Positions 5,987 to 40,371 of a DNA stretch of 64,000 nucleotides are shown in pieces. The DNA lies in contig NZ_CP015423.1 in NCBI RefSeq assembly GCF_001719045.1, positions 248,001 through 312,000 of the forward strand, given 5' to 3'. The stretch is from Paenibacillus polymyxa (GTDB taxonomy: Bacteria; Bacillota; Bacilli; Paenibacillales; Paenibacillaceae). Both the position numbers and the translations under genes were made by a program. The notes under the pieces were generated by a model that saw nothing but the letters and a program-made list of their open reading frames with translations, was not told where the DNA came from and ran no database searches. Within the stretch, counting starts at the first letter, position 1; every line of letters starts with the position of its first letter.

Positions 5987-6193
5987 TTAAACTGCTTCGG
6001 AAAATAGATCATCTAAAGAGTTCACTTTAAAGATAACTTTCAGCTTCTTTGCCATGCCAACATTAATGTTCTCTGGATTTCTCTCTAGACGCCCATAGTA
6101 CGCTTGAGATATCCCTAATTCCTTGGCAACATCTTCTTGAGACATGATGTTGGTTAATCTGTAGTATGCTAACTTGTTAATTGGCTTTCTCAT
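5987..6193 (-). CDS. Cro-like HTH (XRE) regulator
   Basis: A 68-residue single-domain XRE protein. The HTH reads MSQEDVAKELGISQAYYGRLERN. The recognition segment SQxYYGRxERN is shared with the divergent protein at 6292, so both probably bind related operators in the 98-bp gap. The promoter is TTGACA/TATATT with 17-bp spacing on the minus strand (6245-6273). This pair looks like a complete repressor/Cro switch distinct from the main one at 53.7 kb. Confidence 0.8.
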   Translation of the reverse strand: MRKPINKLAYYRLTNIMSQEDVAKELGISQAYYGRLERNPENINVGMAKKLKVIFKVNSLDDLFSEAV

Positions 6194-6234
6194 TTTCCCA
6201 CCCCTTTAGTACTTAATGGTCTAAATAAATTCCA

Positions 6235-6273
6235 TTGCAGTCTTAATATATGCTTGTTATAGTCTAATGTCAA
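6235..6273. promoter_or_regulatory. Overlapping face-to-face promoters of HTH pair
   Basis: Minus strand: TTGACA (6273-6268), 17-bp spacer, TATATT (6250-6245). Plus strand: TTGCAG (6235-6240), 17-bp spacer, TATAGT (6258-6263). Each -10 element lies inside the other promoter's spacer, so polymerase cannot occupy both at once. This is a mutually exclusive switch layout. Confidence 0.75.
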
Positions 6274-30964: not shown

Positions 30965-31255
30965 TTACTTGAGCGCCAGAGCTGCTGCCTTAACGTGAGC
31001 TGGAATGGTGTATCCGTCCTTTTCCGTCAGGCTGCCATCAGCATGCACGGTTACTGCGAGCTGCTCGTACTCGTCGCCACTTGCTGGGATAACTGGATGA
31101 TCGTATGCGTGTTGGCCTTCAAATTTAATGGCGGTACTGTACTCGCTCTTAGACTCTGCTGCTTCCTGTGTACTTTCAATGTGCAAGATTCTAAACCGAT
31201 CCAAATATGCGTACCCACCGTTTCTTACTGCGCTTGCTTCTGTAGACATATTCAT
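30965..31255 (-). CDS. Small YAYLD-family protein, paralogue A
   Basis: 96 residues, not recognised. It contains GGYAYLDRFRILHIE and ends GYTIPAHVKAAALALK. The gene at 37980-38234 encodes a clear paralogue (SYAYLDKEKILHLH...IAIPSGLKALAGQLL), and the two share the same 5' leader (AAAAC-ATnTTAGGAGG). Both are followed immediately by a structured RNA element on the same strand. Mostly beta-strand and acidic; no catalytic motif. Confidence 0.65.
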   Translation of the reverse strand: MNMSTEASAVRNGGYAYLDRFRILHIESTQEAAESKSEYSTAIKFEGQHAYDHPVIPASGDEYEQLAVTVHADGSLTEKDGYTIPAHVKAAALALK

Positions 31256-32913: not shown

Positions 32914-34374
32914 TTATCTTTTTACTGCCACACTACCTATTGAAGGAAGCATAATATGTGTATCTGGTTCCATTAAATATTCTCCGAATGTCAAAACAAA
33001 AGCGTCAGCTCTGTCTGGAGACTTAAGCCCACGCCTTTTCATATCTTTCTTACTTTCAAGCAGTATTTTCCCTTTACTGGTCATGTTCCATTTACGTGCT
33101 GTAAGTTGGGTTATAAGAACATCATCATCAGGCAATTGCAGAACGCTCACATCTCCATTTATAAAATTGCTCATATTCTGTTCTAATTGTTCCTTTATGG
33201 ATGCCCACATTTCAGTAACCAGGTTCCCATAGTGCTCATCTAAAGAAGAAGAGCCATTGTTAATTGGAATGATCTCATATGGTAGCCCTTCTTCAGCTAC
33301 GATTTCATTTAGTCGATCCGTTACTCCTCCACCTACACCGCTATCATCTACTCTTATTCTGATTCGATTTAAATATGGATGAGCTTTATGTAGCTCTTTA
33401 GCCAGGCTGATTACCCAACCAGCAGTAACCATTGTGTCTTTCTTGAAATGATGGTGTTCTCCTACAACTCTTGGCCCTATACCAGCAAACATTGAGGTTT
33501 CATCATCACCAAATCGTGCAACGTCAACGCCTATGGTTAGCGTATCTCCGCTGGGGTCCAGCTTCACTTCTTTAGCTGCAAATTCAGCCACTTCCAACGA
33601 AATAAATGTATCCGATTCTCCACGGGGGAATTCACCTTCAACCCGGACTCTCCATACATCACTGCCTTCACCATACTTACGCTTGAGCATAGCGATATTA
33701 TCCTTGCTTGTTCTTGGACTGTCCAAGCATGAAACCTTGCGTGTCTTATAATCCGCTCTGTCCTTATTGTGCGAATCATAAAAAACACCCGACGTTTTTG
33801 TCGGGTTGCCGCACATCAATATTTTATTGAACTCACCCGACAGAGTACCTAAAATGGCTTCCATGATTGGATCAGCAACACCCGATGCCTCATCCACAAT
33901 AAATAGCATGTAGTCCTCGTGAAAGCCTTGCATATTCTCAGGCTTGGTAGCTGTACGAGCTGTAGCGAACCAGCGTTCCTCGTAGTTCTTCATGTAGATT
34001 TTGGTTTTAGTCCATTTAAGGATTCTTTTCAGCACTGGGCTTTTGGACTGCCATTTATTTATCTCAGCCCATAACACGTCATGTAGCTGCTGTCTTGTAG
34101 GAGCTGTACAAATCACTTTTGGATAAGGGAAGCAGGACAGAAACCAAAGGGCTGTTGCAGCTTCCAGCCCAGTTTTTCCTACGCCTTGACCTGAACGTAC
34201 TGAAACGCGCGGATTATTAGCTAAATCCATTAGAGTGCTTGCCTGCCAATCATCAGGATAGAACTTAAGCATCTCTTGGCAGAACAATGTGGGATTCTTG
34301 CGATACTCAGGAATCCGTTTCTTGAATGCTTGAAGCCTCCGTTTCGTCTCCGGTGAATCCTTCTGTTTCATCAC
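32914..34374 (-). CDS. terL: Terminase large subunit
   Basis: 486 residues; packaging ATPase and nuclease. Walker A-like SGQGVGKT at 61-68, Walker B FIVDE at 158-162, coupling motif near GNPTKTSG (189-196), and the RNase-H-like nuclease acidic motif GVDVARFGDDE (282-292) with VDDSGVGGG and DRADAF further on. It overlaps the terS reading frame by 68 bp, giving translational coupling. Downstream the phage order is broken by the accessory island at 27.1-32.8 kb. Confidence 0.92.
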   Translation of the reverse strand: MMKQKDSPETKRRLQAFKKRIPEYRKNPTLFCQEMLKFYPDDWQASTLMDLANNPRVSVRSGQGVGKTGLEAATALWFLSCFPYPKVICTAPTRQQLHDVLWAEINKWQSKSPVLKRILKWTKTKIYMKNYEERWFATARTATKPENMQGFHEDYMLFIVDEASGVADPIMEAILGTLSGEFNKILMCGNPTKTSGVFYDSHNKDRADYKTRKVSCLDSPRTSKDNIAMLKRKYGEGSDVWRVRVEGEFPRGESDTFISLEVAEFAAKEVKLDPSGDTLTIGVDVARFGDDETSMFAGIGPRVVGEHHHFKKDTMVTAGWVISLAKELHKAHPYLNRIRIRVDDSGVGGGVTDRLNEIVAEEGLPYEIIPINNGSSSLDEHYGNLVTEMWASIKEQLEQNMSNFINGDVSVLQLPDDDVLITQLTARKWNMTSKGKILLESKKDMKRRGLKSPDRADAFVLTFGEYLMEPDTHIMLPSIGSVAVKR

Positions 34375-35596
34375 CTACCACCGCCTCTACCCAATCGTCA
34401 ATTAGATCATCCTCTGTATTGCCTTCTCCCGTAACCTTGGCCCTTTCGAGTTCAAGTTTCTCACGCTGAATCTTAAGTTTTTCGTCCTCAAGCATCCGTT
34501 TATGTTTGTCTGGGAGCAGATCCATGTATTTAGTCAGTACGTCCAAAGCCTTAGTTTTATCGTGTAGTTTAACACTTACACCATCCTTGCCCTGCTTCAC
34601 CTCTGAAACCAGAGTCCCATCAATTTCATCACTATTTTTGAAAGCTACAAAATTATATCTGTACTTCTTAGTGTCTCCAGTGTCTGGATCAAAGACTGGC
34701 TCACCTTCCAGTCCTAGAATATCTTCTTCCTTTTGACCAAACTCTACGTAATCAGTAATGTCTGCAAAAGCGATCTTCATATATTCCATCAGCACACGTT
34801 GTGCATTCAACCCCACCTCGTGGATCATGGATTCCTTATGCTGTCGAATAATGTTTTGAATTTCAACTTTCTTCAACAGAGCGAAACCAATTTGATAGGC
34901 GGTTTTCTTACTGTATCCCGCCGCAATCGCTGACCTGGTAGCATTGAAGTCTCGAAGGTATTCATAAGTGAATATCCTTTGCTTAGGCGTTAATCCGTCC
35001 TCATCGGGAATTTCCGGTTCAGGTTCTTCAACAGTCGCTGGAACGCTCTGTACTTTTTTGGAACGTTCCATATTACCGGAGCGTTCCGGTATTTTTTTCG
35101 GAACGTTCCGTATTTCTGGAGCAGCGTCTTTTAGCTCTTTAGAGAGCGCATCAACTGTTAGCAGGGTAGCATATACCTCTCTTGGCTTATCACCTTGATA
35201 TGTACCAACGAATTTACGCCGCTCCATTTCATCAATCAGTCGGGCCGCGCTGCTATAACCTATCCTCATTCTTCTCTGCAATAAAGAAACCGAGGCTTGT
35301 TTGGCCTCGGCTATAATTTGGACAGCTTTTAGAAAAAGCTCATCCGAATATGATGTTGGTTCTTCATCTTTATTTGGAGGTTCCTTTTTTTGATTAGTTT
35401 CATTTTCATTAGAACGTTCCGTATGTTTTCCTTCCCCAACAATCAAACTCTCCCACTTATCTTTAGCCTTCCATCCTCTTACCGTACCTTCAGATACACT
35501 AAGTTGAGAGGCTATTTCTGTGAGACGTATTTTGCCGGAACTGGCTTTGTATAAATCAAATGCTTCGTCCCGTTTCGGATCTCTCTTTCGTCCCAT
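34307..35596 (-). CDS. terS: Terminase small subunit with internal FtsK-gamma domain
   Basis: 429 residues in three parts. An N-terminal HTH (about 10-45, IRLTEIASQLSVSEGTVRGWKAK) is typical of Gram-positive TerS. Residues 84-146 are an FtsK-gamma winged helix (DELFLKAVQIIAEAK, SVSLLQRRMRIGYSSAARL). A Terminase_2 domain begins at about 201 (LTPKQRIFTYEYL, NATRSAIAAGYS). The linker at 160-190 is encoded by tandem DNA repeats (35040-35118). TerS selects viral DNA for packaging; the extra DNA-reading domain is unusual. Start ATG 35596 with GGGGTG upstream. Confidence 0.85.
   Translation of the reverse strand: MGRKRDPKRDEAFDLYKASSGKIRLTEIASQLSVSEGTVRGWKAKDKWESLIVGEGKHTERSNENETNQKKEPPNKDEEPTSYSDELFLKAVQIIAEAKQASVSLLQRRMRIGYSSAARLIDEMERRKFVGTYQGDKPREVYATLLTVDALSKELKDAAPEIRNVPKKIPERSGNMERSKKVQSVPATVEEPEPEIPDEDGLTPKQRIFTYEYLRDFNATRSAIAAGYSKKTAYQIGFALLKKVEIQNIIRQHKESMIHEVGLNAQRVLMEYMKIAFADITDYVEFGQKEEDILGLEGEPVFDPDTGDTKKYRYNFVAFKNSDEIDGTLVSEVKQGKDGVSVKLHDKTKALDVLTKYMDLLPDKHKRMLEDEKLKIQREKLELERAKVTGEGNTEDDLIDDWVEAVVGDETEGFTGDETEASSIQETDS
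35040..35118. repeat. Iterons GGAACGTTCC in terS, candidate pac/cos binding sites
   Basis: Four units begin at 35040, 35060, 35079 and 35100 (spacing 19-21 bp) with consensus GGAACGTTCCGTATTTTTT; the second to fourth contain the palindrome GGAACGTTCC or GGAGCGTTCC. A fifth copy, AGAACGTTCCGTATGTTTT, lies at 35411-35429. All are inside the terS coding sequence, a common place for TerS recognition sites. Confidence 0.7.
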
Positions 35597-35652: not shown

Positions 35653-35848
35653 ACGAAGAAAAAACGCCTTATTAGACGCTGTTGTAGATGAATTTACTAT
35701 ATGTATAATGTATCATCTTCTCGGTTCACGTTTACTACGTATTTAGTGTTTTTTAATTTATAAAAGTGATAGAATTTACTTGGGAATTATTTCAAAGTAG
35801 TGGTGAAAAACCCACAGAGATTCATCTAAATAAAAGGCGGTGGCTAAA

Positions 35849-37465
35849 TTGATAAACACATCTAATTACGTGAAAACCTATACCACTTTAAGTGACTTAA
35901 CAGGCGGGGAAAAAAATAGTAAGGAAGAAATTATTAAAAAAATTAGTAAAGTTCCACTTGGCGGCGTATTTATAATACTGTCACAAATGAATTCTTATGG
36001 GGGAGAAAACCTTGAAATAAGAAAGATATTTCTCGATTATCTTAAAAGCATAGGAAGCAAAGATCTATCTCAAGTTTTAGGTGATAGTTCATTATATTCA
36101 GAGCAAGGACTTTTAACATTATGGAAATGGTTTTTCGTTTATGGAAATTACAACTCAATCAACGAAAGCGTAGATCCAATTATTGGAGTAAACCAGATCA
36201 TTCATCTTTGTATTGCTGTTTCTGATTACCTGTGTGATGAGATATCGGAGGAGAAAGCAAATAATTATTTTTTCTCAAATTCTGTGTTTAACAATAAGTC
36301 AAATCTAGGTTCCGATTTAGCGAGGTCTTCTCTAATTTTTGGAGAAATAGCCCAAAATGAAAATAATTTTGTATCTAAGGACTTTATAGATATTAACAAG
36401 ATGTTTTCTGATAAATATGGTTACTCAATACAGGATTATCTAGCTATAATTTATGGTCTTATTGCTGGTTTTCTAAATAAAGGAACTAGCAATGCCGCTA
36501 TAAGATCTGATTGGAATAAATCTATTAATTATTTTGATAAAACTCATAATCCAGATTTAGGAAAGAAAATAATTGATGAAATTTCTACTTCATTTCTAGA
36601 CGCAAAAATATGGGCTCAAACATCCATAAACAATCCATGGGATTATACTTTGTTTCGTCAGAAACCATTACTAAAATTAGAAAACGGAAATTTTTATCCT
36701 ATAAATCTATCGCTGTTATTTGATAAAGTTTTAAGTGATTTATATTTTAAAATCAGAGAAACCTCCCCTAAAAACAGTACACAAATAATAAGTTTTTTCG
36801 GAAAATGTTTCGAAAAATACGTGGAGATAATAACCAAAGAAACACTTGGGAGCCGAAAGAACAATATTCCATATGAGTTTATTCCTGAATTTAGTTATGG
36901 AAATAAAAGATCTAATAAATCCCCTGATGCACTTATAAGAGTTAAAGACACTTTGTTAGCAGTAGAAGCAAAGGTTTATCGTTTAAAGATGGACTCACTT
37001 TTTGGAGTTAAACCTGCTATTGAGTCGGATACAAAGAGGTTTGCTATAGACCCTATAAATCAAATGCAAAACCGATTAAGCGAATTGAAGACACGATCTC
37101 ATCAAATTATGAATGGTATTTCCAAAATATATCTAATATCACTTACATTCGGGTACTATCCTACGCTTAAACCTTTTGAAGAGATGATTGATCAGATGAT
37201 TGATGCGTCTGATTTACCGATCAAGGGAATTATTCACATGGATATAGAAGAGTATGAATTCTTTTTAGAGTTAATTTCTAGAAAAGCCTCGTCACCTGCA
37301 TCTCATTATCTTGAGAACAAAAAACAACTTGCTCCTTATACTTCTTTTAAAAATTTCTTATTTTCTAGCTCTTTGTATCCTAAAAGACCTCAATACATTA
37401 AAGATAAGATACTGGAACACAGTAATAATATGAGGGAGACATTGTTTCAAACTGCACTGCGCTAA
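35849..37465 (+). CDS. PD-(D/E)xK nuclease-domain protein, defence candidate
   Basis: 538 residues. The start TTG 35849, with AGGCGG 8 nt upstream, is preferred over GTG 35840. The N-terminal ~300 residues are helical and unrecognised. A nuclease core is visible late: FGKCFEKYVEII (Glu about 322), SPDALIRVKDTLLAVEAKVYR (PD about 359, EAK about 374). The gene is A/T-rich, on the plus strand against the phage operons, and converges on the structured RNA. Single large nuclease genes in such islands are often anti-phage; here that is inference. Confidence 0.7.
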   Translation: MINTSNYVKTYTTLSDLTGGEKNSKEEIIKKISKVPLGGVFIILSQMNSYGGENLEIRKIFLDYLKSIGSKDLSQVLGDSSLYSEQGLLTLWKWFFVYGNYNSINESVDPIIGVNQIIHLCIAVSDYLCDEISEEKANNYFFSNSVFNNKSNLGSDLARSSLIFGEIAQNENNFVSKDFIDINKMFSDKYGYSIQDYLAIIYGLIAGFLNKGTSNAAIRSDWNKSINYFDKTHNPDLGKKIIDEISTSFLDAKIWAQTSINNPWDYTLFRQKPLLKLENGNFYPINLSLLFDKVLSDLYFKIRETSPKNSTQIISFFGKCFEKYVEIITKETLGSRKNNIPYEFIPEFSYGNKRSNKSPDALIRVKDTLLAVEAKVYRLKMDSLFGVKPAIESDTKRFAIDPINQMQNRLSELKTRSHQIMNGISKIYLISLTFGYYPTLKPFEEMIDQMIDASDLPIKGIIHMDIEEYEFFLELISRKASSPASHYLENKKQLAPYTSFKNFLFSSSLYPKRPQYIKDKILEHSNNMRETLFQTALR

Positions 37466-37478
37466 TATTACTTTGAAG

Positions 37479-37975
37479 GCAAATAACAAAAGCCGATGGT
37501 TCTCAGGTTCTAACACGCTCATCGAGTGTGTAACCGATCAATCCATCAGCTGCTTTTTGATGTGCTTATAACTTTGAGTACAGGCAGCATGTTATTAAGC
37601 GGTAATTTGTAACATGCTGCTACCGCTAATCCGCCATGCCTGCAATGGACCTTCAGTGGACATCCTTCTTGATCCAGGTTTATATTACCCTCTGAGTCCT
37701 GTCTCCGATTTAGTTTTAAATACGCCCTAACCCTCCGTCATGCGCTTGCCACTGCCGCCCCCATATACATGCGGTATGGTTCCCAACGGGAATTATTTCA
37801 CAGCGATTACCGTCAATCGCTATAGTCCGCATTACGTGCGGAACAATCTGCCGCCCTTATTGATGGGGTGTTATTACCCTCTTTACGGCTGTCTCCAATT
37901 AGTTGTAGTTAGTTTCGATGTGGGCGAGGCGTGTATCGGGCCTTGCGTCTATTCCGCCACCACATTTAAATCTTA
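37479..37975 (-). ncRNA. Large structured phage RNA (ROOL/GOLLD-like class)
   Basis: About 500 nt without a credible gene, packed with helices: an 11-bp perfect stem (37584-37594/37610-37620) whose loop (37598-37604) pairs 7 bp with 37621-37627 as a pseudoknot; AGCGATT/AATCGCT (37802-37821); TCCGCA/TGCGGA (37826-37842); TTCCC/GGGAA (37780-37792); CCATA/TATGG (37761-37779). Two 34-nt copies of a GGAGACAG...AGAGGGTAATA module are present (37867-37900, 37677-37710). An 8-bp closing helix with U-run at 37481-37550 fits only the minus strand. Class name is inference. Confidence 0.72.
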
Positions 37976-37979
37976 ACGA

Positions 37980-38234
37980 TTACAGAAGTTGACCGGCTAG
38001 TGCTTTAAGGCCACTTGGTATAGCAATTTGTTTGCCATTATCCTCATTTCCGTTTACATAAGCTGTGTCTTTGTCTGCATAATAGATTACACCTTCGCCG
38101 CCGATAACCGGAAAACCGCTTTCGTCGTAATCCAGATTTGTACCCACATACTTGCCATGCTTAACTGCTTCATCTACCAATGGATGGAGATGGAGAATTT
38201 TTTCCTTGTCCAAGTAAGCGTAACTATGTGCCAT
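37980..38234 (-). CDS. Small YAYLD-family protein, paralogue B
   Basis: 84 residues: MAHSYAYLDKEKILHLHPLVDEAVKHGKYVGTN, then VIYYADKDTAYVNG and IAIPSGLKALAGQLL. Paralogue of the 30965-31255 product, with the same TTAGGAGG leader. The stop codon is followed within a few bases by the large structured RNA on the same strand, repeating the gene-plus-RNA arrangement at 30.8-31.3 kb. Function unknown. Confidence 0.68.
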   Translation of the reverse strand: MAHSYAYLDKEKILHLHPLVDEAVKHGKYVGTNLDYDESGFPVIGGEGVIYYADKDTAYVNGNEDNGKQIAIPSGLKALAGQLL

Positions 38235-38369
38235 GTTTATTGCCTCCTAAAATAGTTTTAATTTGTTCCTGAATAAAGTGTAAATCCTTTCTACTCCGTA
38301 CCTACTACGGATTTGCTAGTTCCTACTATCAGCAGAAAATAAAGTGGTAGACTGAGCCTAGAAATTGAA

Positions 38370-38518: not shown

Positions 38519-39427
38519 CTACTTATTGTGTAGAAACAGCCCTTTATGCTTATTGAAAAAATCAAAGTACACTTTTGGGTTTTCTAATTCCCACCATTGC
38601 TTTATGTCGACTGGATTAGCTTCTAAATCATATATTTTTGTAAACTCCATCGCCAGTAAAAACGGTGAGTGCGTTGCAATGATAAATTGACATCCGCAAT
38701 AGTGAGCCATTTCCTCTATCATTTTGACAAGTTCAAGCTGCATTTTAGGAGATAGACTGTTCTCCGGTTCATCCAAACAATATAATGTGTCATTTTTAAA
38801 TTTGGAATTAAAATAACTCAGGGCTGTCTCCCCATTGCTGTTCAGTTTAATTTCGGTGCCGGCGACTCTGCGAATAAACTCCCTGCGTGAAATTGATTTT
38901 TTTCTTGAGAGCACCTGTAACCTCAATGCTTCATAATCATCCATGCTATTCATTTTCACTGTATTGCCGAATTTCAGATTTCCCCATTCCGATCTTATAT
39001 CTTCTGTGCTATCCACGATTTCATCGTTGTTTGTGCGGACTGTAAGCATATAATCAAAAATATCGTCACTTGTGATTATCCTGCTTCCATTTGGAATTCG
39101 ATGTTTAAATCCCTCGTCGTCAAGTCCAAGTTCAAATTTACAATGTTCAACATATGAACTGAACAATTCACTTGAATTGAATGGTGCAATACGATTTAGT
39201 TCCAATTTATTCGCTATGAGATTTAGAAGTGTGCTTTTCCCCGAGCCGTTTCCTCCATATAAAATTGTGATTTTTGAAAAGCTCAATTCGGAAAACCGAT
39301 TTTTTGAGAAAATGCCACATGGGTAAGTTTCGTCGACATATCCAAACCTACCGCCATTGTATGCCATTCTTTGTTCTATCAATGAGGATTCTTCATCTAT
39401 AGGCAATATGAATTTATCTAAATACAT
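38519..39427 (-). CDS. AAA-family ATPase (ABC-type, SMC/OLD-like)
   Basis: 302 residues. Walker A GGNGSGKST at about 58-66, ABC-like signature region SNGETALSYFN, Walker B LYCLDEPENSLSP (about 217-229) and the switch ATHSPF. The architecture is the stand-alone AAA_21-like ATPase common in defence islands. Start ATG 39427 has GGAGG 7 nt upstream; ATG 39433 would touch it. Monocistronic, in the same island as the PD-(D/E)xK protein but on the other strand. Partner nuclease not adjacent; function inferred only generally. Confidence 0.75.
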   Translation of the reverse strand: MYLDKFILPIDEESSLIEQRMAYNGGRFGYVDETYPCGIFSKNRFSELSFSKITILYGGNGSGKSTLLNLIANKLELNRIAPFNSSELFSSYVEHCKFELGLDDEGFKHRIPNGSRIITSDDIFDYMLTVRTNNDEIVDSTEDIRSEWGNLKFGNTVKMNSMDDYEALRLQVLSRKKSISRREFIRRVAGTEIKLNSNGETALSYFNSKFKNDTLYCLDEPENSLSPKMQLELVKMIEEMAHYCGCQFIIATHSPFLLAMEFTKIYDLEANPVDIKQWWELENPKVYFDFFNKHKGLFLHNK

Positions 39428-39448
39428 TTTCATTCCTCCGTAATTCAT

Positions 39449-39732: not shown

Positions 39733-40371
39733 CTAATTTACTTCTGGCATCCTCAGTCCGATTTCACCTTCCCGGTTACGCCCTCTCCCGTAGTCTATAA
39801 CCACAAGATCCAAAGTGCGATTTATTTTCAGACTGTTTGCTATATTGGCAATGGCTCTGCGCCGCTTGTCCGCAAAAGTAGTTTCTGAAATACTTGGAAT
39901 ATCACTGCGATAACCGTTTTTCATGTACTGTTGTGCTTTGAGATATTTCATGCCATCTAGAAACAACAGTTTGGCTATCAATCCCTCGTGCTTGTCGCGC
40001 ATATTGTTTACTGCAAATTTAACGTTATTTGTGATGAATTTATAAAATTTATAGTTCACGTGACGCTGATCCTTGAGGATAACCGTATTAGCTGTCACAT
40101 CTGCCGTTAATTCTTGCCCAGTTACCCGTTTAGCAACCGATCCTTCAGCCGCGAGTATATCATAGGCCGACATTCCATTTTCAATCTGTTGGAGGGAATA
40201 TTCATAATTTTTTATCACATCGACTAGATCAGCGTATTTGCCCAGCAACCATTTCGTTTTTCGAATATCATCTTGTTCAAGATCATCGAAAAAATTTACC
40301 TGGATTATCTTCTGAGTATCGGCAGAATCATCTTCTTTGCTACGTATAATTACAGACTGTTCGTTATCCAT
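39733..40371 (-). CDS. ArpU/RinA-like late-gene transcription regulator
   Basis: 212 residues. The C-terminal half (LIAKLLFLDGMKYLKAQQYMKNGYRSDIPSISETTFADKRRRAIANIANSL) has the sigma-factor-region-4-like HTH pattern of phage ArpU/RinA regulators, which sit at the end of the early operon and switch on late genes. This one is the last early gene. The N-terminal part is acidic and helical. DNA target unknown; the repeated 18-bp palindrome is one candidate. Confidence 0.62.
   Translation of the reverse strand: MDNEQSVIIRSKEDDSADTQKIIQVNFFDDLEQDDIRKTKWLLGKYADLVDVIKNYEYSLQQIENGMSAYDILAAEGSVAKRVTGQELTADVTANTVILKDQRHVNYKFYKFITNNVKFAVNNMRDKHEGLIAKLLFLDGMKYLKAQQYMKNGYRSDIPSISETTFADKRRRAIANIANSLKINRTLDLVVIDYGRGRNREGEIGLRMPEVN

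Follow-up and report, generated by a model that had tools for sequence, protein, structure and literature searches.

The RNA Region and Its Neighboring Genes

The window analyzed here, a stretch of 64,000 nucleotides of Paenibacillus polymyxa DNA, contains a region of about 500 nt located between an 84-aa gene (Y84) and a convergent gene on the other strand (Table 1). This region almost certainly harbors a structured noncoding RNA, encoded on the minus strand of a Paenibacillus prophage (37487-37965), and the basis of this reading is evolutionary, namely the covariation apparent in aligned sequences, and not folding energy. Open reading frames of at least 50 aa that overlap the RNA stretch encode 78 aa on the plus strand (37740-37976) and 54 aa on the minus strand (37358-37522, at the terminator end), and the claim of the preliminary description that the stretch holds no credible gene agrees with this ORF list taken by itself.

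Terminase genes lie downstream of the RNA, and a putative late transcription regulator lies upstream. The latter had no Pfam or NCBIfam match, and its assignment as a regulator, suggested by two phrog matches, is weak. Of 20 loci with a regulator, 9 contain at least one string of a late-promoter-like motif, chosen by eye, in the first 330 nt past it; elsewhere, for instance in the window, inserted genes come first. Among 44 loci, a late-regulator homologue is present within 3 kb upstream in 23, a terminase within 5 kb downstream in 23, and both in 18, counts that are not to be read as frequencies since many loci are close relatives and several contigs are short. Other surroundings also occur. 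For example, module A of L029 stands between a phage sigma factor of another kind (phrog_1190) and a terminase that is diverged (phrog_509, phrog_3717), L032 and L035 have an integrase upstream and a tRNA at the RNA end, and L131 and L124 have transposase-like neighbors, as judged by eye from translations.

In 20 of the 27 loci that come from the own genus or from viral contigs, no more than 100 nt separate Y84 from the RNA, the gene being found on one side or the other; Y84 has nine homologues, and all those with a named host are from Paenibacillus. Y84 and a second small minus-strand gene are paralogues of 30% identity that flank the terminase region. The convergent gene, which encodes 541 aa, weakly resembles the antiphage protein GapS1 (47 bits against a cut-off of 320), and a 47-aa remnant of such a gene adjoins the same RNA modules in L028; the convergent gene is likely to be defense cargo. 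The 309-aa AAA ATPase gene, which had no match in 18 compared contexts, is possibly a defense or takeover gene.

Table 1. Positions of the RNA modules and neighboring genes in the window.
Feature	Position	Strand	Basis or remark
Small paralogue of Y84	30965-31255	-	
Terminase large subunit, downstream	32914-34374	-	phrog_2, E=5.3e-51
Terminase small subunit, downstream	34307-35596	-	phrog_2606, E=1e-85
GapS1-like gene, convergent	35840-37465	+	E=1.3e-12
Module D, terminal hairpin domain with short U-run, candidate intrinsic terminator	37487-37551	-	arranged by eye
H-type pseudoknot, 11 bp + 7 bp	37584-37627	-	
Module C, second core, stems P1, P2, P3 and pseudoknot stems S1/S2	37591-37710	-	covariation
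Module B, 66 nt, hairpin and candidate pseudoknot, 3' half nearly invariant	37720-37785	-	alignment A5, 15 sequences
Module A2, first pseudoknot-type core	37778-37900	-	model R3, E=1.4e-5 (3.6e-4 whole-genome)
Module A1, tRNA-like 5' domain, reduced form without T-arm	37918-37965	-	closing stem ATGTGG (37960-37965) with CCACAT (37918-37923); tRNA-Leu-like D-arm TGGCGGAATAGACGC
Y84, 84-aa gene, function unassigned	37980-38234	-	
Candidate late promoter with repeats (TCCGTAGTAGGTACGGAGTAG), upstream of Y84	38268-38331	-	motif picked by eye
AAA ATPase gene	38519-39448	-	Pfam AAA_21, E=2.4e-16
Putative late transcription regulator, upstream	39733-40371	-	phrog_36, E=4.5e-4; phrog_21810, E=1e-7

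Modules and Fold of the Core

The RNA of the window is a mosaic. It joins a tRNA-like stem domain to a pair of paralogous cores, a module of 66 nt and a terminator domain, and across the loci such modules are lost and recombined. The paralogy of the two cores is seen from model R3, which was built without A-type rows and still detects the first core at the E-value of Table 1; the 34-nt duplication reported earlier (37677-37710 and 37867-37900) falls in these paralogous stretches and is 20/34 identical without gaps. Module D resembles long hairpins found 3' of the core in L070 and L071, and the fold drawn for module B is put forward weakly, as a proposal only.

The H-type pseudoknot of the preliminary description proved to be exactly placed. 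It consists of an 11-bp stem (37610-37620 with 37584-37594) and a 7-bp stem (37621-37627 with 37598-37604), and a combination of this size within 60 nt was obtained in 1 of 2000 dinucleotide shuffles. The 7-bp stem corresponds to the family-wide S2 (helix 5 of the covariation test), and the 11-bp stem appears elsewhere only in L028.

Covariation, on which the earlier reading as an RNA had been made to depend, is present in the core. In alignment A8, which comprises 22 sequences and omits L080, the partial row L078 and the A-type rows, 93.8% of 498 cells are paired, a value favored by the fitting of this alignment to the nested stems; structures slid along it pair in only 31-42%. Two-sided changes were found in 12 of 23 pairs (48 cells), which none of 500 shuffles reached. 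S2, which was part of no searched model, is paired in 91.5% in A8, and alignment A6, with all 32 matches, gives the same covariation picture. Six loci from two other families, all outside R3, again covary: in an alignment fitted with R3, 97.9% of 96 cells are paired, and two-sided changes occur in 8 of the 16 pairs. When the same six loci were aligned by hand together with S2, with stems chosen by eye, pairing was kept in 132 of 137 pairs, whereas swapping partners between loci left 483 of 650 (74.3%). Within the genus, covariation is weak, with two-sided changes in 3 of 23 pairs for the C-type (68 of 500 shuffles as high), in 1 of 24 for the A-type, whose alignment varies little (43 of 500), and in 1 of 12 for module B (71 of 500). 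The core fold thus rests on the cross-genus data.

Strand and 3' Ends

The minus strand, favored earlier, is also indicated by terminators and wobble pairs. Of 46 loci, 21 have an intrinsic terminator called within 200 nt 3' of the last module on the RNA strand and 6 have one on the opposite strand, the expectation from simple shuffles being 0.2 and many of the 46 loci being close relatives; most of these terminators lie 22-41 nt past the last module. Read for the minus strand, G.U cells exceed A.C cells by 31 to 13 in A8, with 14 to 10 in C-type sequences, 1 to 2 in A-type sequences and 3 to 1 in module B.

In the window itself, no terminator was called by the scan, and the terminal hairpin there is branched, with a 9-bp outer stem and a run of four U. 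The closing helix and U-run assigned to this end earlier do exist on the minus strand, but the helix has 9 bp (37543-37551 with 37491-37499) instead of 8, and the U-run is at 37487-37490. The helix at 37513-37531, which had been noted to pair better on the plus strand, indeed contains one A.C mismatch on the minus strand, and its counterpart is perfectly paired there in the relatives L070 and L071. Minimum-energy z-scores were -0.75 for the minus strand and -4.06 for the plus strand, so that the RNA strand is not unusually stable, and over 11 loci no consistent strand bias was seen. Thermodynamic stability was dropped as evidence since these scores conflict between strands and loci.

A role in packaging was also considered, either as a cos/pac-type DNA site or as a packaging RNA that works with terminase. 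In 23 of 44 loci, terminase genes follow the RNA, even the diverged pair being included (phrog_2606 in the window; phrog_509 and phrog_3717 in L029), and such a position would suit a packaging element. However, the RNA also occurs without a terminase nearby, terminators follow it, and compensatory changes and G.U pairs point to selection on an RNA and not on a DNA site, and we consider a packaging element very unlikely.

Relatives and Shuffling of Modules

By blastn, pieces of the RNA were found in 14 of 75 genomes of the genus, the own genome included. These pieces stop at recurring internal points, and the same modules reappear in other combinations: A-B-C in the window, L047 and L054, A-B with a truncated C in L021, A-B in L023, B-C in L028 and L030, A alone in L029, L031, L032 and L035, B alone in L027, L037 and L038, and C alone in L024, L025, L033, L034 and L036. 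Such sharp boundaries and mosaic combinations could also be left by an intergenic recombination scar or a small mobile element whose repeats merely look like RNA. We give this idea almost no credence, as the covariation extends to loci outside model training and the terminators are on one strand.

Covariance models trace the core of about 120 nt into other genera and two further families of the same order. Model R1, derived from 13 C sequences, matched in 19 of 394 genomes of the family, with the doubtful L080 counted; this weakest R1 match (E=0.0044) is regarded as false. Model R3, derived from 22 sequences, matched in 17 of 296 order genomes, which are spread over three families and 8 of 48 genera, and among 398 genomes of the class it found the own genome and one congener only. 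These scans were run in Infernal with stricter filters. Matches of model R2 outside the genus (E of 2.8e-4 or weaker) are regarded as unproven. Module B has a weak relative in another family (L127 5926-6002, E=0.0016). A pattern scan of named genomes gave eight stretches, all from Paenibacillus, and a pattern of the distant type gave five more viral contigs, all five of them matched by R3; in one of these, the metagenomic L161, regulator, core and terminase stand in a row. Two further viral pattern scans found nothing. Against the window region, the phage record collection gave a 22-nt chance match only, and plasmid records gave one match of 69 nt, which is module B on a Paenibacillus urinalis plasmid. 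Three distant members had no match in the phage records, and among the papers covered by a literature search none on this RNA was listed.

Further structured elements were seen at some of these loci. A second candidate phage RNA of about 130 nt lies upstream of the core at L015 1294 (+) and L075 2001 (-). It contains CCCGACAC close to the start and CCGCAAGGGTA farther in, and it ends with a terminator-like hairpin; similar stretches were seen by eye in L035, L115 and L162. In L109-L112, which belong to two families, an extra domain of about 200 nt closed by GGTATTA..TGATACC follows 3' of the core (by eye). L076 2164-2235 (-) gave a below-threshold match to the Enterococcus sRNA Ref64 (34.5 bits against 44.3, E=0.0026).

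The tRNA-like Domain and Neighboring tRNAs

The 5' strand of module A1, GTGGTGGCGGAA..ACGC, is similar to tRNA-Leu in its first part and D-arm, as compared with the tRNA-Leu of L028. An exact 6-bp closing strand is present in 13 of 15 distinct A1 sequences, the window included, against a shuffle expectation of 0.75, and is missing in L013 and L053. It occurs in four versions, ATGTGG (9), TCGTGG (2), GCGTGG (1) and ACGTGG (1). A T-arm-like hairpin precedes the closing strand in 9 of these 13 by eye (full forms, e.g., L115, L090, L108 and L055) and is lacking in four short forms, among them that of the window. In 15 of 45 loci, the pattern detected A1 ahead of the core, and it gave nothing in the other 30; the closing-stem pattern itself missed the version of L029. 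No tRNA was reported by ARAGORN and/or the Rfam tRNA model for A1 of the window, L031, L032, L115 or L090. The term tRNA-like is a structural reading of acceptor, D-arm and T-arm-like parts that are visible in the sequence.

Genuine tRNAs also adjoin the RNA. In 4 of 45 loci, L032, L035, L055 and L075 (= L123), a tRNA begins no more than 2 nt from where the core match stops; ARAGORN and Rfam scans found no tRNA at the core end in the remaining 41. After the RNA of L034, there is a tRNA-like element (6192-6258) with an acceptor, a T-arm and a shortened anticodon arm (Rfam tRNA, 40.8 bits). In L090 and L029, tRNA-like elements whose anticodon arm is shortened or missing were seen by eye downstream of the modules.

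A tRNA-like domain and pseudoknots are united in one RNA in tmRNA, and this combination recurs here. Unlike in tmRNA, the tRNA-like domain of the present RNA is closed within its 5' part, and neither the window nor any scanned locus gave a tmRNA with ARAGORN, the only means by which a tag frame was sought.

Presence and Absence Beside the Regulator

Among 75 genomes of the genus, 17 contain a total of 24 regulator matches, and the RNA accompanies the regulator in 9 of the 16 loci in which the latter is near full length. In the other seven (L143-L149), whose regulators are 69-71% identical, no R3 or R2 match was found within 1.5 kb of the regulator, and by eye the sequence downstream of it is unlike the RNA; the RNA can sit farther away than this searched distance, as at 3.7 kb in L052. 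Among regulator loci without the RNA, R3 gave weak matches only (L144, E=0.17; L155, E=0.79). With no copy seen close to the regulator of these seven related phages, the RNA looks like accessory cargo.

This distribution is relevant to the possibility that the RNA is a cis-acting leader of the late operon, controlling termination or antitermination before terminase. The put RNAs of phage HK022 are such structured RNAs on a phage operon transcript. A leader would fit the usual site after the putative late promoter and before terminase, with both flanks seen in 18 of 44 loci. Moreover, the RNA comes first behind the regulator in loci of two families and in one viral contig (L118, L119, L129, L130, L161), and where a terminator and a terminase both exist downstream, the terminator stands between RNA and terminase (e.g., L021, L024, L030 and L036). 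On the other hand, 21 of 44 loci have no terminase within 5 kb downstream, partly because of contig ends, some loci are beside an integrase or a tRNA, the seven phages above show no copy in the searched range, and in the window the convergent gene stands between RNA and terminase. The resemblance to put RNAs, in structure and in the phage operon setting, is also limited in that the present RNA is larger, often ends at a terminator or tRNA, and is present outside operon leaders. A leader is therefore judged improbable, and trans-acting cargo is preferred over an obligatory leader, because no copy was found within 1.5 kb of the regulator at L143-L149, although the RNA can lie farther away, and the GapS1-like gene shares its site in the window.

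Comparison with Known RNAs

When all 4227 families of Rfam 15 were searched by cmscan, no match at E≤10 was obtained in the region, except for a chance 5.8S match (E=5.1). The preliminary description had likened the RNA to the ROOL and GOLLD classes and suggested a search with their Rfam covariance models, which was run and gave no match; ten distant members had no ROOL or GOLLD match at E≤1, and the ROOL model had none in the whole own genome, a search whose sensitivity was without a positive control. Self-cleaving ribozymes and other Rfam families were likewise without a match in the region and the distant members. Hammerhead-like letters in L077 (CTGATGA) were dropped, as they are absent from the other cores in view and have no Rfam match. 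The RNA belongs to no known family tested.

As outlined in PMC12286853, ROOL is a large RNA of phages that contains multiple pseudoknots and is often located close to tRNA islands, and GOLLD is a phage or prophage RNA, often beside tRNAs, with a conserved 3' region, a less conserved 5' region and an unknown function. By this account, ROOL (RF03087) shares with the present RNA the phage origin and pseudoknots, and GOLLD resembles it in having a conserved core, here kept across three families, behind differing 5' domains. With a tRNA at the core end in 4 of 45 loci, the resemblance in tRNA neighbors extends to some phages only. In contrast, many GOLLD members exceed 800 nt against a core of about 120 nt here, and duplicated and shuffled modules and a frequent site between regulator and terminase distinguish the present RNA from GOLLD; the Rfam model of ROOL has 574 positions. 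A general likeness of kind to both classes stands, but membership is not supported, with the limit that neither model had a positive control.

A diverged ROOL or GOLLD beyond the reach of the Rfam models would account for the phage location, some tRNA neighbors and the conserved 3' and variable 5' parts, as far as the account in PMC12286853 goes. However, the cmscan results down to the lenient thresholds above, and a short core with its own covarying stems, make this extremely unlikely; the own genome also gave no ROOL match, in a search in which no control genome matched either.

Proposed Role

As the sequences show, the RNA has a covarying core of stems P1, P2, P3 and S1/S2, which is sometimes preceded by the tRNA-like domain or by further core and B modules. 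In many loci, an intrinsic terminator comes after it, or a tRNA adjoins it immediately. That it is a stable RNA acting in trans is somewhat probable. The fuller proposal, in which temperate phages of a single bacterial order make a free-standing noncoding RNA late in the lytic cycle and this RNA acts in trans, has in our view an even chance of being right. Transcription would start from a regulator-dependent late promoter, and the 3' end would be set by the terminator or, where a tRNA comes next, by RNase P cleavage at that tRNA. The domain resembling a tRNA would provide RNase P with a 5' processing site and dock the RNA to tRNA-handling machinery (RNase P, ribosome), and the activity would reside in the pseudoknot core. 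That tRNA machinery is the target is a tentative idea, which we think may well be wrong.

As accessory cargo at a hotspot between regulator and terminase, where recombination would exchange modules, the RNA would have a helpful and not an essential role; tuning of host translation, tRNA maintenance or counter-defense during lysis may be considered. The most ambitious version, a new ornate class of phage RNA unrelated to ROOL and GOLLD, built of interchangeable modules (tRNA-like domain, pseudoknot cores, module B) that phages would shuffle as they do protein domains, and acting in trans as a tRNA mimic on the tRNA or translation machinery of the host in lysis, perhaps in counter-defense, is speculative and rather unlikely in its entirety.

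To our knowledge, a fold with good support is available for few other large phage RNAs, and shuffling of RNA domains between phages has been little described. ROOL and GOLLD are still poorly understood according to PMC12286853. The present family adds a large phage RNA with a supported fold that occurs in many phages at a defined place between regulator and terminase. It includes short natural versions, a single core of about 120 nt with a terminator (e.g., L024 and L036), alongside long mosaics, and the host genus Paenibacillus is culturable. Pairs of related prophages with and without the RNA make the function of a large phage RNA testable by deletion and complementation.
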